Positions 32 through 18,396 of a stretch of DNA of 20,175 nucleotides are shown piece by piece. The stretch covers positions 1 through 20,175 of the IMG/VR virus record IMGVR_UViG_3300010354_000897; one strand, written 5' to 3'. Within the stretch, counting starts at the first letter, position 1, and each line of letters opens with the position of its first letter. This stretch comes from a virus. A model generated the notes under the pieces. The model saw only the letters and a program-made list of their open reading frames with translations, had not been told where the DNA came from and made no database searches. Made by a program: the position numbers and the translations under genes.

Positions 32-1444
32 TCAGCGGAACAGGTCGACGACGTAGCTGTTGACGAGGTGCGACCGGAAGGTCACGCGCTCGGCGGGATA
101 GGGCGGCGTGAAGTCGAAGTCGAAAGTCACGTTGCCGCTGGCAATCTGGGTGGGAGTGTTCAGGTCGGGATCGACCCAGACATCGCCGCCGAGGATGGCG
201 CCTCGGGCCTTGAGGCTGCGCAGGTAACCGCGCACCGACTCCTGCACCTCCTCCAGGTAGGTGGCGGTGATGCAGCGGTCGACGGCCCAGAGGTGGCCGC
301 GGAGGATCGACTCGTTCACCATGTCGGCGGTGCGCCGCACGGAGAGGAAGGCGTAGAGGGGATCGCTGGCCAGGGTGCGGTTGCCCCACAGGCGGAAGCC
401 CTGCTCGCGCACGATGGTGGCGATCTTGGCCTCGTTCAGCAGGTTGGCCCGGCTGGTGTAGTCGCCGAGGGTGAAGTCGATGGCGCGGGAGGTGCCCTCG
501 ATGCCGGCGATCTCGTTGTTCGAGGGGCTCCACCAGAAGCCGCGCTCGTTGTCGACCTTGTTGATCAGGCCGGCGACGGCAGGCGATGCGGGGACGGACT
601 CGCCATCACGCAGCACCCAGGGGTCGATCACGTAGATGCGATCGGAGCCGAAGTCATCAGCGATCTGGATCGCGGCGGCGTCGGTGGTGTTGGGGCCGTC
701 GGCAATGATCACCGCGCGGAGGCGGTTGGCGATGCCGAGCAGCTCAGCCAGCACCTCGGAGCGGACGGTGCCGCGGTTGACGGCGCCAGCCACGGCCTGC
801 ACGCCGCCGGAGGGAGGCGCAGCGATCGTGACGGTGGGGTTGCTGGTGTAGCCCTTGCCAGGGTTGGTGATCGTGAAGCTCATCACCTTGCCGGCATTGC
901 CGCCGGTGCCGAGCACGGCCACTGCAGTGGCGCCGGAACCGCCGCCGCCGCTGATGGTCACGGCCGGGGCTGTGGTGTAACCAGAGCCCTGGGTGGTCAC
1001 GGCAATCGAGAGGATGCCGTTGCTGGTGCGCTGATGGGTGAAGCCAGGAGCCAGCAGGATGCGAGGGCTGAAGCCGACCTCGCTCTCTGCGGCGAGGAAG
1101 GCGTGCACGCCCTCGTAGGCGCCGGTGGTGTTGTTGATGCCACCGCGCACGTTGTTGATGGTGGCGGCTTCGTCAGCGCCAGCAGCGACACGCACCACGA
1201 CGACGACAGCGCCGGCCTGGTCGTAGATCAGATCGAGCGCCGACTGGAGCGTGCCGGCTTCGCCGAGGCCCGCCATCTCGGAGCGGCGAGCGATCAGCAC
1301 CGGAGTGTTGAGCGGAAACGCGGTGGCGTCTGCATCAGGCGCCGTGCCGATCAAGCCGATCACGCTGGAGCGCACGGTCTGGATGGGCCGCGCTCCGGTG
1401 TCGATCTGCAGGACCTCCACACCGTGGAGGAAGGTAGTCGTCAT
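32..1444 (-). CDS. Contractile tail sheath protein (P2 FI-like) with inserted repeat domain
   Basis: The 470-aa product is the contractile sheath that surrounds the tail tube and shortens to drive it through the host envelope. The N-terminal part has the usual sheath opening ([15 protein letters not shown] near residues 7-20, then VIGLIGTAP at 28-36). The family core includes [10 protein letters not shown] at 129-138, [14 protein letters not shown] at 243-256 and YVIDPWV at 271-277. The conserved C-terminal domain carries [12 protein letters not shown] at 301-312, RLWGNRTL at 351-358 and [10 protein letters not shown] at 445-454. Between residues about 143 and 225 a glycine-rich segment interrupts the core, with two GxGYxxxPxVTI repeats (QGSGYTTAP and PGKGYTSNP). 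The ATG at 1444 follows an AGGAGG ribosome binding site. A CCTAGAATC element just upstream is shared with the capsid gene leader. Sheath identity is near certain; the role of the insert is unknown. Confidence 0.96.
768..1018 (-). other. Inserted GxGYxxxPxVTI repeat domain within the sheath
   Basis: This segment encodes roughly residues 143-225 of the sheath. It contains two copies of a short beta-type repeat: [20 protein letters not shown] followed about 40 residues later by [12 protein letters not shown]. Removing it would join [10 protein letters not shown] directly to the [20 protein letters not shown] segment, which is how I recall ordinary P2-type sheaths running. Similar repeats are common in cyanophage virion proteins (recalled, not searched). 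It probably forms a surface loop or small beta domain on the outside of the sheath. Confidence 0.7.
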
Positions 1445-2668: not shown

Positions 2669-5083
2669 TCAGTTCAGGTAGACAAACGAGTTGGAGTCGT
2701 CCGTGTAAAAGCGGACCCTAGTACCATCCCAGAAAAATGTCTGTCGCAGCTCCGAGTACGAACCGGCACCGCCAAACAAGGAATTGTTAAGCGCGCTGCC
2801 GCTCCAGGTGCGGTCAAGAAAATAAATGCCAGAGTTGTTTGTGAACTGGTTGTAGATGGAGAAAGCGTTTACGTCGCTTGTCTTGATGTACTTGACGTAA
2901 TCAAAGCGGTTGCCCTGGTTGCCCCACGGCGTATCAAAGCTCGCTCCAAGGCCGTCAGTCGTTGCATAGATGTAAGTTGTGCCGTAGACGTAGTTGCCGG
3001 TGAACTGAACCTCCCTAAGCGTTGTGGTTGATTGGCTTCCATTGCGAGAGATCAGCAGCGTCGCGTAAGTGTTCAGGGTTGTCGAAGTGCTGAACGACCC
3101 AAGGGTGAACGGCTTAGCACGGAACACATTACCTTTGATCAGGATCGTCGCGGCAAGATTGCCAATAAAGTAAACGCCAGACTTGTGATTCTGGAAGGTA
3201 TTGCTTTCGATTACAACCGAGCGCACTTGGCTCGTGAAGTTTGCATCTGTGTAATCGGTATTAATCCTGATTGCGCTGCCTTCGTTGCTGGTGTGAGCAG
3301 CCTCCTTCAATGTTACCGTGTTGCCTGCGATGGTGATTCTCTCCATGGCACGGTAGTTGCTGCCAAGGAAGGCTCGACCGTTGATGTAGGAGCTGAGTCC
3401 TGCCGCCTCAATCGAGATGACTCCTCCCTCGCCACCAGTGCAGTTAATAACGTTCCCGGTGATCGACACGTCAAAAGCTGGCTGACCGACGGTGATGCCA
3501 GCAACACAGTTAGAGATTGTATTGCCAGTAACAGTGCAAACTCGACTGCGGACCTTGATCTGATCGAATCCACAAATTGTCGTGCTGTCGCACACGATGT
3601 TGTTTCCGCTGATCGTCACGTCCATACCCTCAGGGTAGAAGGCATGTTCGCTAGCGTTGCGAACCACGTTGTTTGCAATCAGCCAGTTTCTGCCAACTCG
3701 CTTGATGGCCCCCAGGGTCCAGCCTGTCGTAGGGGTCCACGTATCGTTTTCAGTGTTTGACGGCAGGTCATAGGTGCCGCTGCCGATCACAGCGTTGTCG
3801 CACCAGAGGAACTGATTATTGCAGACAACAGCGTCGTCAACACCGCCAAGGTTTACTGCATGTAGCAATGCACGACCGTTGGTTGAGTGAGGCGTCGCAT
3901 TGAACAGGCAGTTCTGCACTCGAAGGCGATAATTCTTTGTTGTGTTGTAGTAGGCGCTGTTCGCGTAGTCGTAGTTGTAAGGTGTTTGCGTGAAGATCGC
4001 CTCGGAGTCGATGGCGTCAAAGCGGCAATTTTGGATGACGGTGTTCAGCGTATTCTTGAGTGCGATTGCGTAGCGGTTATCGGTCAGAGCGCTGCCAGCT
4101 GTGCTATGGCGGGTGTTTTCGCCAATAAAGTCGAGTCCGTCAATTACCGTGTCCTCAACCGCTGCAGCTACATTGCTATCTGTCGTGCCAACAAAGAGCA
4201 ACGGATAGGCCAGTGCATTTGTACTGATGTCAGTATTGAAGCGGCGCAGCTTTGCGCCATGCCCAAGCAGGGTAATGCCGCTGCTGCCGATCTTGATTCC
4301 CCACCTATCGTTCGTGCCGATGTTGCGGGCGATGCGATAGGTGCCAGGTGGGAAATAGACAACGCCGCCACTTGCGAGGCTGTCAATCGCAGCTTGAACG
4401 GCAGCCGTGTCGTTAGTCGTTGCATCACCAACCGCGCCAAAGTCTTTGACGCTGACGACATCCTTCAGCTTGCTGTCGACCGTCCGCGTAACGGCGCCAG
4501 TGCCGGCTTGAGTGAAGTTCAGCGTGCTCGCGCTTTGCACCGGCCCAGCGACGCCAAGCATCAGCACGCGAATCTTTGCGCCACTTGCCGGCGCTTCGCT
4601 CAGGATCAGGGCTGAGCCGCTGAGGTTGTACTCGCTGACCGGCTGCACCACACCGTCGACGGTCACCAGCAGTGACTCCCTGGTGGGCGGCGTCTGGCTC
4701 AGTGTGAAGGTGGTCTGGCTGCCGGTGCCGGTGAACGTGTTCTCGGTCTGTGTGACGCCCTGCACGTAGCGCGCATCAGCCTGCGTGCGCGTCCACACGT
4801 CTGCGAAGCCAGGCTTGCCCGCGAGCGCATTGGTGATCGTCGTTGCGAAGTTGGGGTCGTTCCCCATCGCAGCGGCCAGCTCGTTCAGCGTGTCGAGCGC
4901 ACCGGGGGCGCCGTTGATCAGATCCGCCAGCTTCTGATCGGCCTCGGACTTGGTGTAGCGGGCAAAGATGTCCGCGTCGATCGCGGTCAGCGCATCGCGC
5001 AGGCGCTGCACATCGTCGGCCAGGAAGTTGCCGGCGTTGGGCAGCTTGTAGCTGCGGTTCGTTGTGCGGTCGTCGATGGGCAT
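2669..5083 (-). CDS. Tailspike with pectate-lyase-type beta-helix
   Basis: An 804-aa receptor-binding and probably glycan-degrading spike. Residues 1-110 form a phage fibre N-terminal adaptor with YKLPN, DVQRLRDALTAIDADIFARY and WTRTQADARYV segments. Residues 115-180 are a beta-rich domain (TFTGTGSQTTFTLSQTPP, LLVTVDGVVQPVSEY). At 209-250 is the hallmark of the pectate lyase superfamily 3 domain: VVSVKDFGAVGDATTNDTAAVQ, then GGVVYFPPGTYRI. Residues about 260-700 carry many short N-rich turns (IQNCRF, VQNCLF, ISGNNIV, VTGNTI, ITGNVI, IAGNTV, IESNTF), as expected for right-handed parallel beta-helix coils. The DNA is GC-rich for the N-terminal anchor and clearly AT-richer from about 4450 downwards, suggesting exchange of the receptor-binding part. 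It begins four bases after the preceding stop. Confidence 0.9.
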   Translation of the reverse strand: MPIDDRTTNRSYKLPNAGNFLADDVQRLRDALTAIDADIFARYTKSEADQKLADLINGAPGALDTLNELAAAMGNDPNFATTITNALAGKPGFADVWTRTQADARYVQGVTQTENTFTGTGSQTTFTLSQTPPTRESLLVTVDGVVQPVSEYNLSGSALILSEAPASGAKIRVLMLGVAGPVQSASTLNFTQAGTGAVTRTVDSKLKDVVSVKDFGAVGDATTNDTAAVQAAIDSLASGGVVYFPPGTYRIARNIGTNDRWGIKIGSSGITLLGHGAKLRRFNTDISTNALAYPLLFVGTTDSNVAAAVEDTVIDGLDFIGENTRHSTAGSALTDNRYAIALKNTLNTVIQNCRFDAIDSEAIFTQTPYNYDYANSAYYNTTKNYRLRVQNCLFNATPHSTNGRALLHAVNLGGVDDAVVCNNQFLWCDNAVIGSGTYDLPSNTENDTWTPTTGWTLGAIKRVGRNWLIANNVVRNASEHAFYPEGMDVTISGNNIVCDSTTICGFDQIKVRSRVCTVTGNTISNCVAGITVGQPAFDVSITGNVINCTGGEGGVISIEAAGLSSYINGRAFLGSNYRAMERITIAGNTVTLKEAAHTSNEGSAIRINTDYTDANFTSQVRSVVIESNTFQNHKSGVYFIGNLAATILIKGNVFRAKPFTLGSFSTSTTLNTYATLLISRNGSQSTTTLREVQFTGNYVYGTTYIYATTDGLGASFDTPWGNQGNRFDYVKYIKTSDVNAFSIYNQFTNNSGIYFLDRTWSGSALNNSLFGGAGSYSELRQTFFWDGTRVRFYTDDSNSFVYLN
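2670..4450 (-). other. AT-richer swapped receptor-binding portion of the tailspike
   Basis: The stretch encoding the beta-helix and C-terminus has visibly lower GC content and different codon choice than the N-terminal anchor at 4450-5083 and the genes on either side. The transition coincides with the start of the pectate-lyase motif. This is the usual pattern when a tailspike head is exchanged between phages while its baseplate anchor is kept. Confidence 0.6.
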
Positions 5084-5087
5084 GGGA

Positions 5088-6515
5088 TCAGATCACCACA
5101 AGACGGAGTTGACGAAGCTGCGGGCGGGCCGCTGCAGAGCCAGTGAGCGTGAGGCGCACGCGCGTGGTCGTGCCGCCGGCCGTGAAGCTGGCGACGGTGT
5201 GGATCTGCTCAGTCCAGCCATCGCCGACCGAGGAGCTGCTGGTGAGCGAGACGGCCTGCCAGGTGCCGTCGCTCTTCTGAAACTCCACCGTGACGCTCGA
5301 TGCGCCAGGCAGCAGCGACTCGAAGGTGCAGCTCACCTTGGCGTTGGCGGCGCATGGCACCGCGCGGCTGATGTAGGTGCCGGTCTCGCCAAGGTTGCCG
5401 TAGACGGCCTGGCTGCCGGCGAACAGGTAGGGGCTTGCGGTGGATGTGCCGCGTAGCACTGCCTTCATGGTCAGCGCAACGTTGAGATCTTCGGCCAGCT
5501 GAATGCGGGCGTTGTCGGCGCCGCGAATCTGCGAGCCATCGGGCCGCTCGAAGATGAACTCCGCATCGGTGGCGCTGCTCACGCGCTCGACGCCAGCGAG
5601 CGCAACCAGATCGGTCACGTCGCCAGCGCTGATCAGGATGGTCCCTGTGGCCGGCGTCGCCGGGCTGTTGGCCACCGTGTAGGTGAAGGTGGTCGGGCCG
5701 GTCACGGTGACCGTGAAGGCGCCGTTGTAGTCGGCCTGCGTCGCGCCGCTGATCACCACCTTCTGGCCGGTAGTGAAGCCATGCGGCGTGCTGGTGGTCA
5801 CCGTCGCCGTGCCGCCCGAGCGGGTCAGGCTGCTCACCGTTGCGCCGCGGATCTGGCCCAGGTTCACCGTGCGGGTGGTGCTGGTGAAGTTGGCGCCGTA
5901 CATGCGGAAGGTGAGGTCCGATTCCTGCACCGGCGTCCAGGTGGAGGCATTGCTCGACTTGAGCATGGTGCCGATCGTGTACGGCTGCGAGGTGACGAAC
6001 TGCTGGGCGGCGGTGTCGAACTTGCCCAGCTCCGCCAGGCCCACGGCATGAATGGCGTCATCGGTCAGAAGCACCATCGCATATTCGACGTTGGGCTCCA
6101 GGTAGACCGGCCGGGTCAGGCTGATCTTGTTCCATGCGTTCACCGTGATGGCGCTGCCCTGCAGCACGCCTTCGGCTAGCGTGGTGGCGTTGGGCAGGCC
6201 CAGCTCCGTCTCCCGGATCTCCAGATAGACCTTGTTGGTGGTGCTTCCCTTGGCGGTGAACTTGAAGTCCACGCCGGTGACGTGGCGGCCCGCATCAAGG
6301 CGGAAGGTCTGAGCCAGCGGGTCCCAGAACCGCGTCTCGATCGTGGTGAGCTGCCGCTGCGTGCGGGTCAGGATCGTGCCGGAACCGATGAAGCGCGCAG
6401 CGCCGAAGCTGCCCTGGTTGCCCAGGAAGGTGACGCGCTTCGTGCCGGTGGGCACGTTTGCCGGGATCGTGAAAGACCCCGTGATCTGGCCGGAGCCGTT
6501 GGCGGTAAGGGGCAT
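5088..6515 (-). CDS. Large tail protein, probable detached C-terminal half of the DUF4815-type protein
   Basis: The 475-aa protein is beta-rich throughout. Residues 1-50 (SGQITGSFTIPANVPTGTKRVTF, then GSGTILT) look like the middle of a longer tail protein, not a natural N-terminus. FWDPLAQTFRLDAGRHVTGVD at about 63-83 begins a jelly-roll-like segment with VYLEIRETE and VEYAMVLLTDD. Residues about 225-295 hold a small module (TVTTSTPHGFTTGQKVVISG, then YNGAFTVTVTGPTTFTYTV) common in phage tail proteins. The C-terminus is another beta-sandwich (SVTVEFQKSDGTWQAVSL, TRVRLTLTG). Its ATG is in the same frame as the preceding DUF4815 gene, nine bases beyond that gene's stop, and has no Shine-Dalgarno. 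It is probably translated by reinitiation and likely sits at the baseplate periphery with its partner. Confidence 0.75.
   Translation of the reverse strand: MPLTANGSGQITGSFTIPANVPTGTKRVTFLGNQGSFGAARFIGSGTILTRTQRQLTTIETRFWDPLAQTFRLDAGRHVTGVDFKFTAKGSTTNKVYLEIRETELGLPNATTLAEGVLQGSAITVNAWNKISLTRPVYLEPNVEYAMVLLTDDAIHAVGLAELGKFDTAAQQFVTSQPYTIGTMLKSSNASTWTPVQESDLTFRMYGANFTSTTRTVNLGQIRGATVSSLTRSGGTATVTTSTPHGFTTGQKVVISGATQADYNGAFTVTVTGPTTFTYTVANSPATPATGTILISAGDVTDLVALAGVERVSSATDAEFIFERPDGSQIRGADNARIQLAEDLNVALTMKAVLRGTSTASPYLFAGSQAVYGNLGETGTYISRAVPCAANAKVSCTFESLLPGASSVTVEFQKSDGTWQAVSLTSSSSVGDGWTEQIHTVASFTAGGTTTRVRLTLTGSAAARPQLRQLRLVVI
5631..5843 (-). other. FCCH-like beta module inside the 475-aa tail protein
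   Basis: Residues about 225-295 contain TVTTSTPHGFTTGQKVVISG followed by YNGAFTVT and TFTYTV. I recall this short beta-barrel-like unit, often scored as similar to the FCCH domain of ubiquitin-activating enzymes, as a frequent cassette in tail proteins of unrelated phages. It carries no enzymatic implication and probably acts as a spacer or weak adhesion domain. Confidence 0.55.
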
Positions 6516-6527
6516 GGCTGGCTATCA
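6516..6527 (-). other. Tandem in-frame stop junction (TGA TAG) between two tail genes
   Basis: On the minus strand the DUF4815 gene ends with TGA (6527-6525) immediately followed by TAG (6524-6522). CCA GCC comes next and then the ATG of the following gene (6515), all in one frame. There is no Shine-Dalgarno before that ATG. The arrangement fits division of one long gene into two cistrons, with the second translated by reinitiation. Confidence 0.7.
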
Positions 6528-8474
6528 GGCGGGGGTGACGACGATCCCGTCGAACTTGACCTCGGTGAGGGTCTCACCCGGGTCGAAGCCCTCCAGGCTG
6601 AAGTTGATCTGAATCTGGCGCAGGAACTCCGCCGGCCGTTCGGACTCGCTCAGCAGCTCCGTGCGGGTGGTGACGGTCGTGGCTTCGGAGTAGCGACCCG
6701 TTGTGCCCATGAAGGTGCGGATCTGCTGCGTCGCCGGCGATGTCCAGATCGTGTCGATCTGCACGAAGCGGTCGACTGCAGGCGTCAGAGTGATCGCTGC
6801 AGGGATCGGATCGAAGGCCTGGTAGGGGTTGATCTTGCTGGAGCCGGTCTGCCGCGTCTGCTCCAAGATGATCTCCTCGGTGTAGGGGAGCATCCAATCC
6901 TGCGCGTTGTTGTCCGGCGCGCGGTAAACCGTGGGCGCGATCGGCAGCTGCAGAACGCCATCGACGATTGCCGCGGTCTGGGTCAGGCCCTGATCGCGCA
7001 TGTCGTCGTCAAGGAACGGATCGACGAAGACGCCACGCTTGCTGCTGGGTTCGCGCGAGCTGATGTCTGTCTTCAGCCGCTCGAGGGCCACCAGGTCGTA
7101 GAGGTCGACGATCAGCGAGCGCATCCGCTCCAGCTGGTCGAAGGGGATCGCCCGGATGCCGTCGTTGATGACGTTCGGCGTCAGGCCCCAGCGCTGCTCG
7201 ACCGTCGCCAGGTTGAGCAGGTTGGCAGGGGTCGCCGGTGGCAGCGGGTTGAAACGGCTGCTGATGCCCTTGACGCGGGAGAAGTTGCCCTCGCGGTCGA
7301 TGCAGATCCGGTCGTAGCGGGGGAGTTTCCAGCGGTAGTCGGAAAGCACCAGGGTGCCGTTGACGGCGCCGGTCACCGTGAAAGTGCCAGCCTGCAGGTC
7401 TACAGCGGTTGGCGTGACGCTGCCGAGGTAGCGGTAGACGACCGTGTAGGTGGAGCCAGGTGCGGGCTCGGTGGCGCCGCCGCCTGCGGGGCTCCAGTCC
7501 ACCTTGTCGCCGTTCAGGAAGTAGTCCTGCGGCGTGTGATAGGTGGTGACGCCCTGGGTGACGCTCTGGATGCTGAGCACCGACACGTCAGGCAGCGTGT
7601 CCTGCCCGCCGCTCGTGCCGCCGCGCGTCAGCGTGACGGTCTTCTCGCGGGTGATCACCACGCCCAGGATGCTCTCCAGGGGGTAGCGGTTCATCTGGAT
7701 CGTGGCGCTGCCGCCGGTCGTGCCCGTGAAGGTGTCGGGCTCCGAGGTGACCGTCTCAAGGTCAGGATCCTCGCTGTAGTTGAGCCGGGTGGCGGCCAGC
7801 TTGTCGATCTTGTAGCCGTAGATGTTGCCGGTGCCGTCCTTGACCGAGAAGGCGTTCACGCCGGCCGCCAGGCCCAGCGCCGTGACGCTGAGGCCGGTGA
7901 CGATGTAGGAGCCGTTGCTCTCCCGGTCGTAGCGGGCCAGCGCCTCGGCGAAGTTGTCGCCCACATTGCCGCCGCCCTGGTTGAGCAGCGCGCCGTCGAT
8001 GACGGTCCAGACGGGGTAGAAGACGCCAGTGCTGCCGTCGCCTTCGCGGCCCCAGGTGGCAGTGACGCGCAAACGGCCGGCGCCAGGCTCGGTGTAGCCG
8101 CGAGTGCCAACGGCAGGGTTGCGCAGGTCAGCGTCCTGCACCTCCGTGATCTCTTCGCTCAGGAGGTAGACGCCGACGCGCACCAGGCCGGTGGCGGCGA
8201 TCGTGAAGGTGCGAGCGGGGATCTCGCGCACCGCGCCGCGCAGGTAGATCAGGCTGAGCAGGCAGTTGATCGTCGTGCCGCTGATTGTCGGCGGCGTGCC
8301 GCTGATCACCGCGCCGTCCTTGAACACCGCGTCAGCGATGCGCTTCAGACGATCGATCAGGGTCGACTGCACCTCGTTGAGCTCGGCGCTCTGCGAGTGC
8401 TTGCCCGCGCGGAACAGGATCTCGTCGTAACGATCGGCCGCATCGAAGCGGTTGTAGTAGCCGGCGAGCGTCAT
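6525..8474 (-). CDS. DUF4815 domain tail/baseplate protein
   Basis: The 649-aa product matches the DUF4815 family as I recall it. The N-terminus YYNRFDAADRYDEILFRAGK followed by QSAELNEVQSTLIDRLKRIAD is characteristic. GAVISGT and a long beta-rich midsection follow, then SRVKGISSRFNPLPP and a helical segment DQLERMRSLIVDLYDLVALERLK. FVDPFLDDDMRDQG and a C-terminus ending SLEGFDPGETLTEVKFDG complete it. Such proteins lie beside baseplate and fibre genes in contractile phages and probably connect the baseplate to fibres; a molecular role is not established. The start overlaps the previous stop as TGATG at 8474. The gene ends in tandem stops TGA TAG and its frame resumes in the next gene, so the two may be halves of one ancestral protein. 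Confidence 0.82.
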   Translation of the reverse strand: MTLAGYYNRFDAADRYDEILFRAGKHSQSAELNEVQSTLIDRLKRIADAVFKDGAVISGTPPTISGTTINCLLSLIYLRGAVREIPARTFTIAATGLVRVGVYLLSEEITEVQDADLRNPAVGTRGYTEPGAGRLRVTATWGREGDGSTGVFYPVWTVIDGALLNQGGGNVGDNFAEALARYDRESNGSYIVTGLSVTALGLAAGVNAFSVKDGTGNIYGYKIDKLAATRLNYSEDPDLETVTSEPDTFTGTTGGSATIQMNRYPLESILGVVITREKTVTLTRGGTSGGQDTLPDVSVLSIQSVTQGVTTYHTPQDYFLNGDKVDWSPAGGGATEPAPGSTYTVVYRYLGSVTPTAVDLQAGTFTVTGAVNGTLVLSDYRWKLPRYDRICIDREGNFSRVKGISSRFNPLPPATPANLLNLATVEQRWGLTPNVINDGIRAIPFDQLERMRSLIVDLYDLVALERLKTDISSREPSSKRGVFVDPFLDDDMRDQGLTQTAAIVDGVLQLPIAPTVYRAPDNNAQDWMLPYTEEIILEQTRQTGSSKINPYQAFDPIPAAITLTPAVDRFVQIDTIWTSPATQQIRTFMGTTGRYSEATTVTTRTELLSESERPAEFLRQIQINFSLEGFDPGETLTEVKFDGIVVTPA

Positions 8475-8959
8475 CAGAAGGTCACCACAAACTCGAACAG
8501 CTGACGGGTTGTGATCTCGCGGATGATCGGCGCCCGACGCTCGATCACCAGGAGGGTGCCAGGCTGCGCCACCTCGGCAGGCAGCAGGTAGAGCTGGCCG
8601 GAGGGCACGCCGGCCGCGGCCACGGTGTCGAGGAAGATCGCCTGCTCGCGGATCGTGGAGCCAACCGCATCAGCGAACTCGAAGTGGAACTTGAAGTAGA
8701 GGTTGTTGGTCGGCGTGCTGGTGACGCTGAACCTGCCCTCAGGCACGCTGATCGCGCCGGCTGCGTCGGGCGTGCAGAAGTCGACCTGATTGGCCTTGCG
8801 CCGCGCGATCTCCGCCAGCAGCGCCGTAGCGTTGCCGGCAGGCGCCGGAGGGGTGTTGCCCCAGGCTGCGTCGCCGCTGCCCCAGGCCAGGTGGGCGGTG
8901 CGCGCCTTGATCGCCGTCGCGATGGCGATGCGCCCGCTGGTAGTCAGGACTGCCGCCAT
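8474..8959 (-). CDS. Small tail/baseplate-associated protein, 161 aa
   Basis: Begins MAAVLTTSGRIAIATAIKAR, then HLAWGSGDAAW at 23-33, a pattern I recall in a family of phage tail proteins encoded just after gpI in P2/Mu-like contractile phages. The middle segment has IARRKANQVDF and VPEGRFSVTSTPTNNLYFKF; the C-terminal half is beta-rich (REQAIFLDTVAAAG, GQLYLLPAEVAQPGTLLVIE) and ends TRQLFEFVVTF. No enzymatic motif is visible. The position between gpI and the DUF4815 protein suggests a role in attaching fibres to the baseplate. The gene is separated by 25 bases from gpI, with a GGGGCGAG ribosome-binding-type sequence before its ATG. Confidence 0.72.
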   Translation of the reverse strand: MAAVLTTSGRIAIATAIKARTAHLAWGSGDAAWGNTPPAPAGNATALLAEIARRKANQVDFCTPDAAGAISVPEGRFSVTSTPTNNLYFKFHFEFADAVGSTIREQAIFLDTVAAAGVPSGQLYLLPAEVAQPGTLLVIERRAPIIREITTRQLFEFVVTF

Positions 8960-16480: not shown

Positions 16481-18364
16481 TCAGGCGCCAGTGGAGCGGT
16501 AGAAGCCCTGGTGCTGGCCGACGGCGCAGCCGAAGTCGTGACGCAGGTAGGTCACGATGCCGTCAGGATCGCGCTTGATCTCAGACTCAATGGTCGGGCC
16601 GGCCTCGCCTTCGAGGTAGCCGTAGATCAGCTTCGTCACGCCGGGGTAGTTGCCAGTGATGTAGTACTGGGTGGTGCTGCTGGCGTCCAGGCGAGGCTCA
16701 ACGATCGCCGTCAGCTTGCCGGTGAACGGGTTGACGTTGCTGGTCTGGGTCGGAGTGAAGGGAGCGTTGAACTGCTCGAAGGTCGTCTCCAGCGTGGTCG
16801 GCAGCAGGATGTACTGCGGCACCACGTAGAGCGGGTTCTTGCCGGTGAAGTCCTTCTGGTTCCGCATCGCCTGGCGGGCGGCCGCGATGGCCGTCACACC
16901 GATCGCGCCGCTGCCGGTGTTGTTGTGGCTGGCGTGGAACAGAGCCACACCATCCGACATGCACTTGGCGTTGCCGGTGATCAGGCCCCACATCTGGTTG
17001 GCCTCGAAGGTGGCGACGCCACGGGCCAGCACCTGCACAGCGCGGGTGATGTAGCCCAGGTTGTCGTTGATGATCAGGCGGCGGCCGATCACCAGCTTCT
17101 TGCCGTACTCCGAGAGGTTCCAGGTGCCCTGTTGCTCCTGGATGGTGCCGGTTTTGTACTCGCCGCCTTCCTTGATCTCTTCAGGCAGGATCTGACCGCC
17201 GACCTCGATCTCCTTCATGTCGCGGAAATCGGGCAGGTTGCGCTGCTCAGCCAGCGGCGCCCAGGTCTGCACCTCTGCGCCATAGGCGGCCTTCAGGCTC
17301 ACGCGCTGAATGGAAGCCATCAGCAGCGGGAAGTCGGAGGTCGAGTGGAACGCACGAACGGCGATCTCGCTCTTGTCCATCCCGCGGTGGCTGACGCCAG
17401 CCAGTTCCAGGGACTCACGGGCCATGTCGAGCAGCGTGCTGCCGCGATACTCGCGGGCGCCGCCGTCAGTCAGTTCGCCCAGGTTGGAGCGGAACTTCAG
17501 GTAGTCGAGCTTGGCGTCGAAGCGCTTCTGGCCGTGATCCTGGGTCACCTCGATCCGGGACTGTGCGGGGGTGCGCAGTTCGTCCTGGGCCTTGGCGTCG
17601 ATCAGCTGCAGGCGGGCCTCGTCGAGGGTGACGCCATCAGCGATCAGCTTGTGAGCCAGATCGTCGCCGACCTTCAGCTTGCGAGCAGCGTCGAGGATCC
17701 CGGCGGTGCGGCGACGCTCTTCAGCGCGCACCTCATCGGCGTTCACCACAGACGCAGCCACAGGGGTCGCGGCGCGGGTTTCGTTCTCCTGGGTGGGCTC
17801 GGGAGCCTGCACCCCATCAACGGGAAGGGTCATGGATCGTTCCTTTTCAGGTTGGGTTGCAGGCGGCTCCTCGGAGCGCACCTGGGCCCCGGCGTCGGCC
17901 GGGATCGGGACCAGTGAGAGCTCATAGGGCTCCCAGTCCACAGCGCGCTCAACCGGCACAGCGCCGGTCTCGTCGCGCTCCGTCTTGTGGACCTTGTAGC
18001 CCACGCTGACGTTGCGGTAGATGCCGTCTTGCACATCTTGGAAGATGGGCTCCACGTCATCACGCCGGCTGAACTTCACCAGGGCGCGGCCCTCGTTGCC
18101 GTCCAGCCATGCTCGCTGCACCACACCGATCTGGCTGCGCAGCGAGAAGGAGTCGTGCGCATCGAGCAGCGGCGCGCCTTTGTTGAGGCGATCCATCCGC
18201 ACGGCGCCGGGCGCCATGCTCAGCTCCTCGATGTAGTCACCGCGCGACCAGCTGGCGCGCTTCACCTGGGCGCCGGTCGACCAAACCAGCTCAACAGTTC
18301 GCTCCTCGACGTTGATCGTCTCCGGCGCGAACATCGCGCGGGTCTGTAGAAGACCGTCGCTCAT
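16481..18364 (-). CDS. Prohead protease-scaffold-major capsid fusion protein
   Basis: I choose the ATG at 18364 because GGAGG lies about ten bases before it; a GTG nine bases upstream abuts the Shine-Dalgarno. Numbering follows the 627-aa product. Residues 1-170 are a HK97-type (U35/S78) prohead protease with His70 (LLDAHDSF), Ser120 (YRNVSVGYKV) and Glu148 (PYELSLVPIPAD), the expected His-Ser-acidic arrangement. Residues about 178-285 are charged and helical (ERRRTAGILDAARKLKVGDD), as in scaffold segments. From about 285 onward is a Mu gpT-like capsid with SDFPLLMASIQRVSLKAAYG, GTWNLSEYGKKLVIGRRLII, NPLYVVPQYILLPTTLETTF and a C-terminus ending GFYRSTGA. Single-chain protease-capsid proteins are known. 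The internal ATG at 17833 could separately make a protease-free capsid precursor. Confidence 0.93.
   Translation of the reverse strand: MSDGLLQTRAMFAPETINVEERTVELVWSTGAQVKRASWSRGDYIEELSMAPGAVRMDRLNKGAPLLDAHDSFSLRSQIGVVQRAWLDGNEGRALVKFSRRDDVEPIFQDVQDGIYRNVSVGYKVHKTERDETGAVPVERAVDWEPYELSLVPIPADAGAQVRSEEPPATQPEKERSMTLPVDGVQAPEPTQENETRAATPVAASVVNADEVRAEERRRTAGILDAARKLKVGDDLAHKLIADGVTLDEARLQLIDAKAQDELRTPAQSRIEVTQDHGQKRFDAKLDYLKFRSNLGELTDGGAREYRGSTLLDMARESLELAGVSHRGMDKSEIAVRAFHSTSDFPLLMASIQRVSLKAAYGAEVQTWAPLAEQRNLPDFRDMKEIEVGGQILPEEIKEGGEYKTGTIQEQQGTWNLSEYGKKLVIGRRLIINDNLGYITRAVQVLARGVATFEANQMWGLITGNAKCMSDGVALFHASHNNTGSGAIGVTAIAAARQAMRNQKDFTGKNPLYVVPQYILLPTTLETTFEQFNAPFTPTQTSNVNPFTGKLTAIVEPRLDASSTTQYYITGNYPGVTKLIYGYLEGEAGPTIESEIKRDPDGIVTYLRHDFGCAVGQHQGFYRSTGA
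17831..17847 (-). promoter_or_regulatory. Internal ribosome binding site and start within the protease-capsid fusion
   Basis: On the minus strand, AAAAGGAA (17847-17840) is followed six bases later by ATG at 17833, in frame with the fusion gene. It falls exactly at the end of the protease domain, at residue 178 of 627. Starting here would give a 450-aa scaffold-capsid polypeptide without protease. Lambda makes its scaffold (Nu3) from an in-frame internal start in the protease gene, a direct precedent. Confidence 0.55.
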
Positions 18365-18396
18365 GATGTGCACTCCTCCATCGTTGCGATTCTAGG
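18365..18396 (-). promoter_or_regulatory. Capsid gene leader: CCTAGAATC element plus GGAGG
   Basis: CCTAGAATC at 18396-18388 (minus strand) lies immediately beyond the portal stop and is followed by GGAGGA and the capsid ATG at 18364, 23 bases after the element. The sheath leader has the same nine bases and nearly the same spacing. Capsid and sheath should be the two most abundant virion proteins, so a shared expression signal is plausible. No -35 box is seen. Confidence 0.45.

Follow-up and report, generated by a model that had tools for sequence, protein, structure and literature searches.

A DUF4815 baseplate protein encoded as two genes in a viral fragment, with a cut that appears to fall inside one small β-rich domain

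VrlC, described as a component of the two-layered baseplate (PMC7029224), is already annotated in Wolbachia phages as a pair of genes, vrlC.1 and vrlC.2. In the phage WO genomes WOVitA1 and WOcauB1 the two genes adjoin baseplate genes and are separated by a spacer of 5 nt in the former and of 11 nt, followed by a GTG start, in the latter, with the second gene out of frame with the first in both. Other phages produce the same protein as a single polypeptide: in Staphylococcus phage 812 (PDB 9euf) it is one 1152-aa chain, Gp48 of Acidithiobacillus phage AcaML1 and gp15 of Acidovorax phage Alfacinha1 are single fused ORFs, and in the fused homologues of Bacillus phages the C-terminal half adopts lectin-like and carbohydrate-binding-module folds (PMC11406892, Table 1). 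The open-access literature searched yielded no report of a recurrent cut within a domain, nor any on the structure of the phage 812 baseplate.

The window analysed here, meaning the whole 20,175-base viral fragment, carries a comparable pair on its minus strand. VrlC.1 (6525..8474, minus strand; 649 aa, with a TGA stop) is a DUF4815 baseplate protein that matches Pfam PF16075 over residues 7-577 (E=1e-183), and VrlC.2 (5088..6515, minus strand; 475 aa) is the C-terminal half of that baseplate protein. The two ORFs map consecutively to a single PHROG and a single PDB chain, VrlC.1 covering columns 9-705 of the 1141 columns of PHROG 877 and residues 9-618 of 9euf, and VrlC.2 covering columns 720-1138 and residues 733-960; the AlphaFold2 (AF2) model of VrlC.2 also matches 9euf_0 (E=2.7e-16). 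A profile built from fused relatives aligns to 9euf residues 9-1147 in a single stretch that spans the junction (E=4e-152), and the AF2 model of one fused relative, L083, matches 9euf structurally (E=6e-54). Together, VrlC.1 and VrlC.2 account for the chain that other phages produce in one piece, each supplying one half of it, as the original prediction had proposed for related phages. The pair corresponds along its whole length to the protein of phage 812 and other Herelleviridae, although the loop that is cut in the window is intact and longer in phage 812, where it lies near residues 715-731 of 9euf. AcaML1 Gp48 and Alfacinha1 gp15 share its domains and its baseplate gene order but, unlike the window, have no stop at the junction, and the Wolbachia WO pair is cut at the same protein position but branches separately from the window's clade in the tree.

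The genes around the pair form a contractile-tail module in the order portal, capsid, gpV, PAAR, gpW, gpJ, gpI, BW3TFN, VrlC.1, VrlC.2, fibre/spike genes and sheath, which places the VrlC pair after the baseplate wedge genes and ahead of the tail sheath gene. The gene immediately upstream (8474..8959, minus strand) encodes a baseplate wedge 3/tail fibre network component (BW3TFN; Pfam PF25691, E=2e-50) and overlaps the start of VrlC.1 by 1 nt, while the downstream gene (2669..5083, minus strand), a tail fibre or spike with a pectate-lyase-like domain (PF12708, E=1e-15), begins 4 nt past the VrlC.2 stop. Most genes in the window overlap their neighbours or sit within a few nucleotides of them.

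On the minus strand the junction between the two genes reads TGA (6527-6525), TAG (6524-6522), CCAGCC (6521-6516) and ATG (6515-6513). The tandem in-frame stops TGA TAG occupy 6522..6527 and the 9-nt stop-to-start spacer, TAGCCAGCC, occupies 6516..6524; the VrlC.2 ATG lies in the same frame as VrlC.1, unlike in the Wolbachia pairs, and no Shine-Dalgarno (SD)-like pairing is present in the 20 nt upstream of it. The arrangement is as originally described. Conservation supports the start codon assigned to VrlC.2: of 89 split representatives, 74 have this start exactly 14 residues ahead of an FxIP motif. The same junction, TGATAGCCAGCCATG, is common to four independent contigs (L002-L005) whose VrlC.1 sequences are 88-95% identical, and therefore is not an assembly error. 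Two other junctions in the window restart in frame after a 3-nt spacer, from a 105-aa to a 228-aa gene (TGA GCC ATG) and from an 804-aa to a 347-aa gene (TGA TCT ATG), and an immediate second in-frame stop follows 5 of the 22 window genes, so the motif is ordinary for this genome. The spacer TAGCCAGCC looks like the 5-nt TAGCC of relatives with GCCA duplicated, a putative duplication that would shift the start by 4 nt and bring VrlC.2 into frame; the tandem stop, whose second codon is missing in most relatives of the clade, looks like an incidental by-product of it.

About 228 full-length, non-redundant relatives comprise 124 split and 104 fused forms, and wherever the protein is split the two separate ORFs are cut at one conserved loop, in all lineages. 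The split type includes a cultured phage, Dolphis of Pseudomonas putida. Trees of the DUF4815 part show 12 changes of state with 145 rows and 9 with 71 rows, the latter without long branches; at least six changes are forced by well-supported branches in each, and a single split clade is rejected (p-AU 1e-88), which rules out one origin of the split. The fused form is likely ancestral, since the distant outgroups (Herelleviridae and a Rhizobium phage) are fused. Within the clade of the window the split has been stably inherited; all members are split apart from L083, which is probably a re-fusion, the branches near it being weakly supported. With the split found across the clade and the same junction in four contigs, the earlier claim of a stable split and not a sequencing error holds. 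Swapping of C-terminal modules is unsupported as the cause of the split, as the identities of VrlC.1 and VrlC.2 are correlated (rho about 0.70-0.72 in split pairs and 0.80-0.86 in fused pairs). A scan of bacterial genomes returned no matches with the window protein as sole query and 54 loci with a five-sequence alignment. Internal stops in VrlC.1 were present in L161, L167, L266 and L309, two of which are in Wolbachia-like genomes; these are likely decayed prophages or sequence errors and were set aside.

The usual expectation for large structural proteins is that splits fall in the linkers that join domains. In VrlC the cut appears to fall within one folded domain and not in a linker, as judged from AF2 order along the chain and a profile match to 9euf. 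VrlC.1 in split forms usually ends 9-11 residues past an FDG-like motif, and in fused forms the distance from the FDG-like motif to FxIP is mostly 22-23 residues; the end of VrlC.1 and the start of VrlC.2 thus stand at fixed motif distances, which localizes the cut to one loop. For the fused L083, AF2 gives a model with a whole-chain pTM of only 0.42, in which the junction (near residues 661-667) sits in an ordered block of about residues 630-713. Disorder is predicted on either side of this block (565-628 and 714-724), and the block comprises strands 638-644 and 651-657 as well as those that follow the junction. A profile of this block matches 9euf residues 685-773 as one unit (E=5e-10), and Pfam offers no confident name for it. 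The predicted junction domain is about 85 residues long, β-rich and Ig-like in appearance, where "Ig-like" refers to predicted strands only. VrlC.2 therefore appears to open mid-domain, as first proposed. The original prediction had also named, as evidence that would weigh against it, homologues consistently encoded as separate genes with their own ribosome-binding sites and with unrelated domain ends at this point; many homologues do have separate genes with ribosome-binding sites of their own, but the second part does not hold, as the ends that face each other at the cut are related.

The reading that we favour, at a probability of about 0.72, is that VrlC.1 and VrlC.2 are separately translated subunits of one baseplate protein, the second produced by reinitiation at its ATG, and that they are rejoined through the split domain. 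The N-terminal half of this β-rich domain would be formed by the last ~35 residues of VrlC.1 (6528..6632, minus strand), as delimited by the AF2 model of L083 and by conservation in split forms, and the C-terminal half by the first ~43 residues of VrlC.2 (6387..6515, minus strand), as delimited by AF2 and the 9euf profile match. The first strands of the domain would come from VrlC.1 and the last from VrlC.2, the two chains would rejoin by completing it, and the assembled baseplate would be the same as with a fused chain; the strand pairing across the cut is a prediction drawn from AF2 order and DSSP. In split forms of the window's clade the two half-domains are conserved at 3.57 and 3.74 bits per column, compared with 3.54 for the whole of VrlC.1, and in other split forms at 2.80 and 2.89 compared with 2.78. 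The share of the block contributed by VrlC.2 is predicted with a pLDDT of about 65-71 when this protein is modelled alone and of about 83-90 in the fused chain, the VrlC.2-alone model being less confident over the same strands despite a deeper alignment. Other contacts within the baseplate may instead hold VrlC.2 in place, leaving the half-domains dispensable and the chains not rejoined through them; the strand pairing across the cut is a predicted one, which leaves room for such an arrangement, but we consider it unlikely, as the half-domains are equally conserved in split and fused forms and that of VrlC.2 is predicted less well alone than in the fused chain.

Rejoining through the split domain may also bear on where the cut falls. 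If a flexible linker were cut instead, nothing would tie the sugar-binding half to the rest, a possible reason for the restriction of cuts to this loop; no cuts in disordered linkers were found among the split relatives. We lean, by a modest degree, towards the broader view that this chain has been cut again and again in phage evolution, with at least six gains or losses, inside a small Ig-like domain, that the separately made proteins rejoin by completing the domain, and that linker cuts are absent since they would detach the sugar-binding half.

How translation of VrlC.2 begins is suggested by the spacing of the two genes. An SD-like site lies upstream of VrlC.2 in 13% of the window's clade, compared with 93% of the 58 other split forms, and the spacers of the clade never exceed 10 nt. 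Because there is no SD and the spacers remain within 10 nt, we infer that ribosomes terminating VrlC.1 at the TGA would restart at the ATG 9 nt downstream, and on these sequence features the stable gene pair is probably translated by termination-reinitiation, which keeps the reinitiation first suggested for this junction plausible. Translational coupling drops steeply with intergenic distance, and closely spaced pairs often encode subunits of a complex (PMC10666635). The window shares with bacterial termination-reinitiation pairs a very short spacer, the lack of an SD and products expected in one complex (PMC10666635), although coupled genes typically overlap, by 4 or 1 nt, whereas these genes lie 9 nt apart, a distance that permits reinitiation but exceeds its optimum, and the coupling is putative. 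VrlC.2 might alternatively be started independently of VrlC.1 translation, by SD-less 30S initiation and not by reinitiation. The weakening of coupling with distance (PMC10666635) would fit this, as would the usable SD of 93% of other split relatives, in which independent initiation of VrlC.2 evidently works; the missing SD in the window, its rarity in the clade and the short spacers there make it doubtful.

The original prediction had also raised stop suppression, that is, a programmed read-through of the stops with a long VrlC.1-VrlC.2 chain as a minor product. In its favour, the window has both ORFs in one frame, fused forms exist among relatives, and about half of the window-clade representatives (16 of 31) happen to be in frame. 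Stop-to-start spacers in the clade measure 2, 3, 4, 5, 9 or 10 nt, however, and frames 0, 1 and 2 are used by 16, 3 and 12 representatives, and in close relatives with spacers of 2, 4, 5 and 10 nt VrlC.2 is not in frame with VrlC.1. Nor are the stop codon and its 3' context conserved: the clade has TGATAG, TGATAA, TGAGCC, TGATCG, TGATCC, TAAGCC and others, and further out its junctions read TGA GCC ATG, TGA TAGCC ATG, TGA TCGCC ATG and the like, often with a single stop. With all three frames in use and the tandem stop not conserved, a conserved read-through product is excluded at the level of sequence comparison. Read-through in the window itself would require both tandem stops to be read, TGA, TAA and TAG each terminate other window genes, and in L230 a stretch of 1.6 kb with a HipA gene lies between VrlC.1 and VrlC.2, all of which renders it very improbable. 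An alternative genetic code is likewise unlikely, as the 22 window genes end in TGA (18), TAG (2) and TAA (2). Assembly error, or recent pseudogene formation from the single gene that some relatives retain, can be dismissed in view of the four contigs sharing the junction and a clade-wide split with conserved start codon and coding regions.

The L230 insertion (L230:5582-7248) carries a gene for a HipA-like kinase (HipA_C, E=3e-55, plus an N-terminal HipA domain) and what is likely a small HTH partner, and resembles a toxin-antitoxin insertion at the split, with vrlC.1 and vrlC.2 both intact.

If correct, separate translation and rejoining through the split domain would make VrlC a natural, recurrent split-protein system inside a contractile tail, in which one intradomain loop is reused repeatedly under two modes of translation, driven by an SD in most lineages and without one in the clade of the window. 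The naturally matched fused and split versions lend themselves to studying how two subunits are kept equal in dose and joined by a phage. In practice, VrlC.1 and VrlC.2 are best annotated as a single functional unit, without mistaking the split for a sequencing error.

Several further features were observed in the window and its relatives. VrlC.2 of the clade is about 475 aa long, compared with about 400 aa in most split relatives, and contains an extra stretch (residues ~235-297; window 5624-5812, minus strand) resembling a repeat-like domain matched by other virion-protein PHROGs (phrog_9998, 5838, 701 and 19630). Residues ~139-229 of the tail sheath protein (755-1030, minus strand) match a domain of many baseplate wedge and fibre PHROG profiles. 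A 740-aa open frame antisense to VrlC.1 (6282-8504, plus strand) probably arises from the high G+C content of 64%. A 630-aa ORF (16481-18373, minus strand) has a capsid domain in its C-terminal half only, and its N-terminal half, which has no Pfam match, is prohead protease-like by eye, suggesting a protease-capsid fusion. A relative 74% identical in VrlC.1, L154, is a contig of a Cyanobium MAG, which weakly suggests freshwater cyanobacteria as possible hosts of the window's phage group; the Synechococcus elongatus control genome also has a DUF4815 match.
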